NCBI GenBank assembly: GCA_009377635.1
Contig: WHTR01000009.1
Span: 5,645-37,914 of the forward strand
Direction: 5' to 3'
DNA length: 32,270 nucleotides
Source of the DNA: Chloroflexota bacterium
GTDB lineage: Bacteria; Chloroflexota; UBA6077; SHYK01
Shown: piece after piece, positions 10,957 through 31,786 of the stretch
Layout: every line of letters starts with the position of its first letter
Position numbering within the stretch: position 1 is the stretch's first letter
Notes under the pieces: model-generated
The model's database searches: none
What the model saw: only the letters and a program-made list of their open reading frames with translations
What the model was told of the DNA's origin: nothing
Made by a program: the position numbers and the translations under genes

Positions 10957-11778
10957 TCAAAGCACCTGGCACTCGGGGCAGATGGAGCTGCCTCGACCGG
11001 CGGCGCGAATGATCTGGATCACGGTCCCGCAGCGGTGGCAGGGCTGCCCCGCTCGATGGAAGATGCGCAGGTGCGCCCCGTTCCCGCCCGGCAGTCCGTA
11101 CAGGTCCTTGTAGTCACTGAACGTCGTCCCACGCCGCTCGATCGCCTCGTTGAGCACGTCGACGATCGCCCCGCGCAGCGCAGCGATCTCCTCGGCGCGC
11201 AGCGTGTGCGCGCGACGCGCCGGGTGGATCGCGGCCGCCCAGAGCGACTCGTCGACGTAGATGTTGCCCAGTCCGGCAACGAGATGCTGATTGAGGAGCA
11301 GGGCCTTCGTCAGCGCGGTTCGTCGGCCGAACTGCGCGACGAGGTAGTCGAAGCTGAAGTCCGGCTCCAACGGCTCTGGACCGAGTCGCCGGTGCAGCAC
11401 GCGGACGTCGTCGCTTGCCAGCACGCGCACCTCCCCGAAGCCCCGCGCGTCGCACAGCCGGAGCTGTCGACCGTCGTCGAGCGTGAGCGCGAGGTGGACG
11501 TGGGGGTCGAGTGGCTGGCCGGGGTCGCGCAGTAAAAAGTTCCCGGTCATACCTCGATGGATGAGGAGCGTGTCGTCCCCATCGAGGTGGAGGAGCAGGT
11601 ACTTCCCGCGGCGGCTGATGGACCGGAACGTGCCCCCCTCGGCGCGTTGACGCAGCTCCTCGGCGGTCTGAAGTCCCATCATCCGCGTCTGGGCGACGTC
11701 CGCGCACACCACGCGGCGCCCCACGACCTCGCGTTCGAGGTCGCGCCGCATCGTCTCGACTTCCGGTAGCTCCGCCAT
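10957..11778 (-). CDS. mutM: Formamidopyrimidine-DNA glycosylase (Fpg/MutM) with Ala at residue 2
   Basis: Fpg removes oxidised purines such as 8-oxoguanine and cuts the abasic site. At 273 aa the length is normal. The conserved Glu3 (MAELPEVETM), the Lys of RRGKYLLLHL, IHRGMTGNFLL, AGLGNIYVDE, and a C-terminal zinc finger with CHRCG and CPECQ plus the Arg of AAGRGSS are all present. The oddity is residue 2: the codon is GCG (Ala), where the family has Pro, whose N-terminal amine is the nucleophile after Met removal. Start ATG 11778 is fixed by the LPEVE motif; a GTG at 11790 would bury it. Activity with Ala1 is conceivable, since NEIL3 uses Val, but is unproven here. Confidence 0.88.
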   Translation of the reverse strand: MAELPEVETMRRDLEREVVGRRVVCADVAQTRMMGLQTAEELRQRAEGGTFRSISRRGKYLLLHLDGDDTLLIHRGMTGNFLLRDPGQPLDPHVHLALTLDDGRQLRLCDARGFGEVRVLASDDVRVLHRRLGPEPLEPDFSFDYLVAQFGRRTALTKALLLNQHLVAGLGNIYVDESLWAAAIHPARRAHTLRAEEIAALRGAIVDVLNEAIERRGTTFSDYKDLYGLPGGNGAHLRIFHRAGQPCHRCGTVIQIIRAAGRGSSICPECQVL

Positions 11779-11807
11779 CCCCAAGGCCACGGATATGTGT
11801 CCGTCGA

Positions 11808-14108: not shown

Positions 14109-14277
14109 CTAGTGGGTCAGTTCCAATGAGCGTGGCCTTTTCGTCCAGTAGGGGAGGGGCTTGTCCCCTCCCGCCCGGCGAACGCGCAGAGAGCCGAGCG
14201 GCGGGGCACAAGGCCCCGCCCTACCGGACGTATGGAACCCGAAGCAATGGCAATATCCATGAGAACTCACCCGCTAG
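14109..14277 (+). mobile_element. MITE-like inverted-repeat element, copy A
   Basis: This 169-bp unit begins CTAGTGGGTCAGTTC and ends with the near reverse complement (reading inward from the right end, CTAGCGGGTGAGTTC). It contains two nested GC hairpins, one starting GGGAGGGGCTTG, and an inner pair of arms around GTAGGG and CCCTAC. It encodes nothing credible. Copy B at 15615-15781 has the same order and structure with most bases identical. The right end lies 4 bp past the stop of the metallo-beta-lactamase-fold gene. Transposition by a transposase acting in trans is inferred from the shape; no transposase is in the window. Confidence 0.65.
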
Positions 14278-14281
14278 CATC

Positions 14282-15307
14282 CTACAGGAACGTCGGGATG
14301 CGCGGCGGAGCAGGCGCCTCGGACCGCTGGAAGAGGAACGCCTGCGGCCCAACCATCTGGATGAAGCTCAGCGTCATGTCCAGGGCGAGGAAGAGGCGGT
14401 GGCGCGGGAACTCCGAGACGATCGCCGCACGGAGCTGGGCACGTCTGTCATCGGTCAGCGGCGCCTCCCCACCGTCGCAGTGCTCCAAGACTAGGCGGCG
14501 GAGCGTGTTCAGGTAGCGCTCCTGGGCATCGATGAGGCCCACATCGCCGGGGTTGCCGTGGCCGGGGACGATCACTCGAGGCTGCAGCTCGCGCACCAGC
14601 GTCCGGAGCTGATCGAGCTGAACCAGCCAATCCTCAGTGCTGGTCCCGTCAGCCGTGACGGGATGCATCTGGCTGAGTAGCAAGTCGGACACGTGGAGCA
14701 CGCGCTGCTCGGGGAACCAGGCGACGGTGAGATCGACCGACTCCCCTCCGGCGGTCGCTCCATCCCCGAACTCCATTAGCTGAACGCACGTGCCACCCAG
14801 CTCGATCTCGCGGAACCTCGAGTACGTGGTCCGGGGGACGACGTAGGTCTGAGGGAGATGCCCACCCCAGAGGCCGTTGAATAACATCAGGTACCAGAAA
14901 CCGTGGCCGTCGATGAGGCGCGCCGTCAAGTAGCTGGACACCAGCTCGGCGCCCTCGCGGCGAAACACCTCGTTCCCGAACATATGATCCGGGTGATGGT
15001 GGCTGTTGGACACGAAGCGTATGGGCTGGTCGGTTCGAGCACGAATATCTCGGACGACCTCCTCGGCATACTTGGGCAGTAACTGTGTATCGAGGACGAT
15101 GACGCCCGCTCGGGTGATGGCGTACAACGATGTGACGTTCAGCCCATACTCCGGCGCCCGGTACACGTAGACATCGCCACCGACATGGATGCTCTGGCCG
15201 CTGTCCTCGAGACTTCCGTAGTCGGGAATCCAGGGCATCACGGGCTGAGTAAACAACGGCGCAGCGTAGAACTGTCCTCGCGGCTGGATCGGGGTCTCGA
15301 TTGCCAT
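14282..15307 (-). CDS. MBL-fold metallohydrolase
   Basis: This 341-residue protein has a metallo-beta-lactamase core. The metal site is clear: SNSHHHPDHMFGN near residue 100 (HxHxDH), HVSDLLLSQ (metal Asp) and PGHGNPGDVG. A Val-Ile-Val-Leu-Asp strand (AGVIVLDTQ) precedes the first motif. The C-terminal ~70 residues are helical and unlike lactamases. The likely role is hydrolysis of a thioester, lactone or other ester; I cannot name it. Start ATG 15307 has GGGAGG six bases upstream. It stands alone and is flanked at both sides by MITE-like copies in direct orientation (14109-14277 and 15615-15781). Confidence 0.85.
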   Translation of the reverse strand: MAIETPIQPRGQFYAAPLFTQPVMPWIPDYGSLEDSGQSIHVGGDVYVYRAPEYGLNVTSLYAITRAGVIVLDTQLLPKYAEEVVRDIRARTDQPIRFVSNSHHHPDHMFGNEVFRREGAELVSSYLTARLIDGHGFWYLMLFNGLWGGHLPQTYVVPRTTYSRFREIELGGTCVQLMEFGDGATAGGESVDLTVAWFPEQRVLHVSDLLLSQMHPVTADGTSTEDWLVQLDQLRTLVRELQPRVIVPGHGNPGDVGLIDAQERYLNTLRRLVLEHCDGGEAPLTDDRRAQLRAAIVSEFPRHRLFLALDMTLSFIQMVGPQAFLFQRSEAPAPPRIPTFL

Positions 15308-15428
15308 GATGGTCCTCCCTCGTATGTGATTCCGCCGGATCGGCTGGATGGCCTCCACCCGCGCACGCCCGCGAACCGACTGATGTCTGCGTTTGTTCGG
15401 CTGTGGAAAGCGGGGGTGCTCTGTGGCG

Positions 15429-15540
15429 CCTCCTGCCACCGTCAGGATCAGCATAGGGGTCGCACGTGGACCAGCACGTCGGAAGGAATACGTAGCCGAC
15501 TACGCAATTCGCGGACCCGGCTACGTACGTCGCGTAGGGC
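15429..15540 (+). repeat. Second dispersed repeat family, copy 1
   Basis: About 110 bp aligns without gaps to the reverse complement of 18300-18412, with roughly four fifths of the bases identical by eye. Both copies start CCTCCTGCCACC, include TCAGCATAGGGG, CCGACTACGCAA and end near CCCGGCTACGTAC. In this copy ACGTAGCCG and CGGCTACGT form a 9-bp inverted pair. The rest of 15308-15614 shows no gene. Function is unknown. Confidence 0.65.
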
Positions 15541-15614: not shown

Positions 15615-15781
15615 CTAGTGAGTCAGTTACTGCGAGCAGCGCCTTTTCGTCCGGTAGGGGAGGGGCTTGTCCCCTCCCGCCCTGAGACCGCGCACAGAGC
15701 CGAGCGGCGGGGGAAAGCCCCCGCCCTACCGGAACGACGAGACCGACGCAATGGTGATGCTCATGACAAGTGACCCATTAG
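15615..15781 (+). mobile_element. MITE-like inverted-repeat element, copy B
   Basis: This 167-bp unit has the same architecture as 14109-14277. The left end reads CTAGTGAGTCAGTT and the right end, read inward, CTAATGGGTCACTT. The central block with GGTAGGGGAGGGGCTTG is nearly identical between the copies. It is in the same orientation as copy A, so the pair brackets the MBL-fold gene and copy 1 of the second repeat as direct repeats. Confidence 0.65.
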
Positions 15782-31601: not shown

Positions 31602-31786
31602 CGCCCTCACCCCCTAAGCCCTCTCCCAGAGGGAGAGGGGCAGCCGGATCGCCTCTTCCCGGCCCTCCCCCCGATGTGATGGCGGAGCTGTACGAGCTCC
31701 CAGAGGGAGAGGGGCAGACGGATCGCCTCTCCCTCTGGGAGAGGCCGGCCGAAGCACGCGAGAGCGGGCGAGGACGGGTGAGGGCG
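31602..31786. repeat. Nested palindromic repeat of about 185 bp
   Basis: The ends are an 11-bp perfect inverted pair, CGCCCTCACCC (31602-31612) and GGGTGAGGGCG (31776-31786). Inside, CTCCCAGAGGGAGAGG occurs twice (about 31623 and 31699). The second copy is followed by its reverse complement, CCTCTCCCTCTGGGAG, to make a 16-bp stem. It has no coding content. Together with the rest of 31491-31930 it forms the gap between cysS and the last gene. Confidence 0.7.

Follow-up and report, generated by a model that had tools for sequence, protein, structure and literature searches.

The window, the whole stretch of 32,270 nucleotides of Chloroflexota DNA analysed here, carries on its minus strand (11778..10957) an intact mutM open reading frame of 273 codons followed by TGA, as read from the translated reverse complement, and there is no gene on the plus strand across 10957..11778. 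Its first codons, ATG GCG GAG CTA CCG GAA GTC GAG, encode MAELPEVE, and the 273-residue product reads MAELPEVETMRRDLEREVVG...CPECQVL*. In the Fpg/Nei enzymes the secondary amine of an N-terminal proline attacks C1', Glu3 donates a proton to O4', and departure of the base is followed by elimination; this proline is the hallmark of these enzymes and the basis for labelling them bifunctional glycosylase/lyases. A sequence-only reading had identified the product as an Fpg/MutM with alanine in place of the catalytic proline at residue 2, and the minus-strand codon is indeed GCG. The features of the gene are collected in Table 1.

Table 1. Features of the Ala2 mutM gene, in window coordinates
Feature	Position	Strand	Basis or remark
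mutM/fpg, 273 aa, MAELPEVE...	10957..11778	-	Intact ORF; TGA at 10957-10959; NCBIfam and Pfam
Start codon ATG	11776..11778	-	Sequence reading
Codon 2, GCG = Ala; catalytic Pro (CCN) replaced	11773..11775	-	Same codon in G002; Pro in 45/45 other orthologue-type rows
Lys59 of RRGKYLL, AAG; catalytic Lys equivalent	11602..11604	-	Invariant in 53/53 aligned sequences
C4 zinc finger CHRC...CPEC with Arg262	10969..11040	-	PF06827; every Cys and the Arg kept

Homology, domain content, fold and model scores all identify the protein as a MutM orthologue. It scores 269.8 bits against NCBIfam NF002211 (cut-off 212) and 267.7 bits against TIGR00577 (cut-off 203.3), both of which are general fpg equivalog models, and the Pfam domains PF01149, PF06831 and PF06827 (Fapy_DNA_glyco, H2TH and zf-FPG_IleRS) span its full length, all above their gathering scores. 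The AlphaFold2 model has a pLDDT of 95.2, and the PDB structure closest to it is MutM with 8-oxoG DNA (1r2y; TM 0.94, 1.5 Å). By sequence, the closest PDB entries are bacterial Fpg/MutM proteins (E about 1e-56); NEIL3 follows at about 1e-5 to 1e-6, and this comparison does not place the protein within NEIL3. The earlier claim that the other key motifs are kept holds in the alignment and extends beyond the residues it named: Glu3, Glu6, Lys59 (RRGKYLL), His74, Asn172, Arg262 and the four zinc cysteines are present, as are the void-filling Met77, Arg112 and Phe114, whose positions are those named in the matched MutM structures M77A, R112A and F114A.

Compared with the structurally characterised bacterial enzymes (Geobacillus MutM, 1r2y; L. 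lactis Fpg, 1tdz; E. coli Fpg, 1k82), the window protein has the same domains, fold, Glu3, lysine, zinc finger, void-filling Met/Arg/Phe and length, but its N-terminal catalytic residue is alanine whereas theirs is proline, so that the proline by which Fpg/MutM enzymes are recognised is absent. NEIL3, a vertebrate Fpg/Nei enzyme with Val2, is a natural member with a primary-amine N-terminus, as the window protein would be after removal of Met1. NEIL3 is distant from it in sequence, prefers single-stranded DNA and has extra C-terminal zinc fingers, whereas Ala2 is the only respect in which the Chloroflexota protein departs from a standard bacterial MutM. We file it as an Fpg/MutM homologue and variant rather than as a proven bifunctional enzyme of the Pro type, and we do not endorse the automatic label 'bifunctional glycosylase/AP lyase', which sequence does not justify for the Ala2 lineage. 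Natural, rare and conserved in two genera, it varies a family already known and does not represent a new system.

Among 150 relatives, the best orthologue match comes from a genome of another genus in the same family (G002) and is 64-65% identical. Its mutM (L004 1486-2442 (-), G002:C142), found in an independent assembly, begins GTG GCG GAG CTG CCC GAA GTC GAG and likewise encodes MAELPEVE, a start that the first alignment missed because of an in-frame insert of about 43 codons. The inserted residues (about 43; NVAAARNGFPTFNSPWAVEGDAIDRPILAPNGACQGCPED...) lie in the loop after RRGKFLLLRL. A dispersed repeat was ruled out as the source, since the insert DNA is single-copy in G002 and absent from the source genome (G000); the insert could be a hint of relaxed constraint. 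The remaining two orthologues from the family (G003 and G004) begin MPELPEVE. In a maximum-likelihood tree of 53 sequences the G000 and G002 proteins form a clade (support 100/92), the sister of which is the Pro2 pair from G003 and G004, with support of 100/98 for all four. The position of this clade beside Pro2 sisters implies that Ala2 arose once, on the common branch, and the best reading of the sequences is that proline was replaced by alanine in an ancestor shared by two genera or more.

The family survey for MAELPEVE that the sequence-only reading had proposed was run at several levels. With the start motif RTG-NNN-[ELPE(V/I)E], which does not capture TTG starts or diverged ones like that of the PELPEID paralogue described below, the 29 genomes of the class gave 40 occurrences: 37 with Pro2, the two Ala2 mutM genes and one (L152) that is not Fpg. 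Of 400 Chloroflexota genomes, 332 contain the Pro2 start motif and eight contain the motif with a second codon starting with A, G or T, a count that passes over CNN codons other than those for proline; only the G000 and G002 genes among these eight are Fpg, the six other non-Pro matches, L152 included, being rejected as not Fpg. The canonical starts in 48 genomes from other groups, to which unrelated matches had led, all have proline except for one copy in the metagenome-assembled genome of Oscillochloris sp. RM1_1_4 (L046 2-730 (-)). This third Ala2 protein is Fpg-like, is cut off at a contig edge and sits on a long branch with a separate origin in the tree; the same genome has a Pro2 copy elsewhere. 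The position of L046 among the relatives of G000 in the tree is also what points to Chloroflexota as the phylum of G000. Ala2 is thus common to a clade of two genera and otherwise almost absent.

A collection-wide scan for MAELPEVE was discarded as an estimate of frequency: 115 of the 116 matches listed have no Fpg similarity and are mostly short frames, apparently antisense to other genes, and the targeted surveys above take its place. A viral scan for the motif gave one match, which is non-Fpg. In many proteobacterial and Bacteroidota genomes (loci L033-L148) a conserved antisense reading, LAELPEVE..TSP, lies opposite another gene, which is a caution for surveys based on the motif only.

The consequences of Ala2 can be weighed against published substitutions at the same residue. 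In M. smegmatis Nei2, the P2A mutant retains 5-hydroxyuracil glycosylase activity (32.5 vs 32.4% in the wild type) but loses AP lyase activity (3.3 vs 93.8%), and its trapping by borohydride falls from 73 to 6.1%; in vivo it still complements (PMC11323726). In human NEIL1 P2G the primary amine of Gly2 bonds covalently to C1', and the mutant has residual activity; for E. coli Fpg P2G and P2T, the same paper reports 10% of wild-type activity on Fapy-dG (PMC10164570). NEIL3, naturally Val2, needs removal of Met1 for activity (PMC11323726) and has a weak β-lyase activity (PMC6523847). The laboratory mutants have undergone the same or a similar loss of the secondary amine and predict a glycosylase without efficient lyase, but they are engineered Pro2 enzymes, partly from other subfamilies, whereas the Chloroflexota Ala2 is natural and maintained. 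The sequence-only reading had offered two interpretations, use of a primary amine or an altered lyase activity; both are plausible and they are not mutually exclusive, and the published mutants favour an altered lyase.

Taken together, the data on Nei2 P2A, NEIL1 P2G, Fpg P2G/P2T and NEIL3 lead to the expectation of a glycosylase with weak lyase, and we lean toward the view that Ala2 MutM is such an enzyme, with a weak AP lyase, and is a natural orthologue that has persisted since an ancestral loss of the secondary amine. Methionine aminopeptidase is expected to remove Met1 before a small second residue such as alanine. In the scheme that we infer for chemistry, substrate preference and hand-over to AP endonucleases, Met1 would be cleaved off and Ala2 would become the new N-terminus; damaged purines would be flipped out and excised with Glu3, Lys59 and Arg262 still in position; and the attack on C1' would come from the primary amine that Ala2 provides, or water would take its place. 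The Schiff base would form weakly and β/δ elimination would be slow. Glycosylase activity would then predominate, probably with Fapy lesions as better substrates than 8-oxoG, and abasic sites would be left to Nfo, Xth or Nth. A caveat against this explanation is that the Nei2 P2A data come from single-stranded DNA and do not concern Fpg on 8-oxoG; in addition, 8-oxoG excision and complementation are reportedly nearly lost in E. coli Fpg P2G/P2T, and Ala2 MutM could therefore be much weaker than proposed. More tentatively, the MutM lineage may have become fixed as a Pro-independent and essentially monofunctional 8-oxoG/Fapy glycosylase, with water or the alanine primary amine as nucleophile and with strand cleavage handed to AP endonucleases. 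With a natural and maintained Ala2 MutM, one can test directly whether the excision of 8-oxoG requires a secondary amine and how much weight the lyase step has in vivo.

The source genome encodes repair enzymes that can process the products of such a glycosylase. Nfo and Xth score above curated cut-offs in both G000 and G002. The HhH-GPD proteins of G000 come closest to MutY, Nth and a DR2438-type monofunctional glycosylase, without reaching the equivalog cut-off in any case, and the Nth-like query is a fragment. Both Ala2 genomes also have a second Fpg-like gene, with Pro2 (L002 964-1812 (-), G000:C222; L169 in G002). The L002 protein starts PELPEID and belongs to the same superfamily as the window MutM, but it forms a separate deep branch, and the paralogue is without equivalents of the void-filling Arg112 and Phe114 and without the zinc-finger arginine. 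Nfo and this paralogue occur together in two of the two Ala2 genomes, and neither was found in those of the Pro2 sisters G003 and G004, which are small (88% and 76% complete); the co-occurrence of Ala2 with Nfo and a second Fpg-like gene is a lead only.

Full bifunctionality, with the N-terminal alanine's primary amine standing in for proline at little cost, as valine does in NEIL3, is unlikely. The dependence of NEIL3 on Met1 removal (PMC11323726), the attack on C1' by the primary amine of NEIL1 P2G (PMC10164570) and the purifying selection on Ala2 mutM are consistent with full bifunctionality, but the AP-lyase product of Nei2 P2A is only a small fraction of that of the wild type (PMC11323726) and the β-lyase of NEIL3 is itself weak (PMC6523847). 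Moreover, no compensating change was found at other strictly conserved sites: of the sites strictly conserved across the 45 orthologue-type rows, only position 2 is altered in both Ala2 proteins.

A catalytically dead or decaying protein, with its role covered by the paralogue and by MutY/Nth-type enzymes, is less probable again, even though the presence of the Pro2 Fpg-like paralogue in both Ala2 genomes and the in-frame insert in the G002 gene could be taken in its favour. The Ala2 mutM gene is maintained under purifying selection: between the G000 and G002 genes dN/dS is 0.291/1.142 = 0.25, with dS near saturation, and two pairs of Pro2 genes give 0.13 and 0.19. The reading frames are intact in two genera that are about 64% identical, every other catalytic and zinc residue is kept, and the paralogue, in the absence of the Arg/Phe void-fillers and the zinc-finger arginine, is no evident substitute in the repair of 8-oxoG. 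The intact motifs, the dN/dS of about 0.25 and the confident MutM-like model together argue against decay.

A start of translation upstream of the ATG would mean that residue 2 is not N-terminal and that proline was free to drift, and this we consider improbable. In-frame candidates do exist: TTG at -2 codons and GTG at -4 (11788-11790) in G000, GTG at -3 in G002 and a start at -5 in the Oscillochloris case; there is no clear ribosome-binding site ahead of the G000 ATG. However, the upstream residues are not conserved, reading V-A-L-G in G000 and VRH in G002, whereas the first 14 residues from the methionine are identical in the two proteins, and upstream starts lie close by in the Pro2 sisters G003 and G004 as well, so that this feature does not track with Ala2. 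No in-frame upstream start in G000 gives an N-terminal proline. Because the upstream residues differ and everything from the methionine on is conserved, the encoded N-terminus is most likely Met-Ala.

A sequencing, assembly or binning error in which CCG was read as GCG, although it would take only a single-base difference in a metagenome-type assembly of 343 contigs and 84% completeness, is scarcely credible, because the same Ala2 is found in the independently assembled genome of another genus, in a protein that diverges by 36% elsewhere and forms a clade with that of G000.

Elsewhere in the window, the neighbouring gene for chlorite dismutase had been suspected of containing a sequencing-adapter remnant, which was not supported on checking. 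A 98-nt intergenic direct repeat (14109-14206 and 15615-15712; 87% identical) flanks a gene of the metallo-β-lactamase fold at 14282-15454, and a 37-nt direct repeat (31623-31659 and 31697-31733; 95% identical, 74 nt apart) lies in a GC-rich stretch near the window end.
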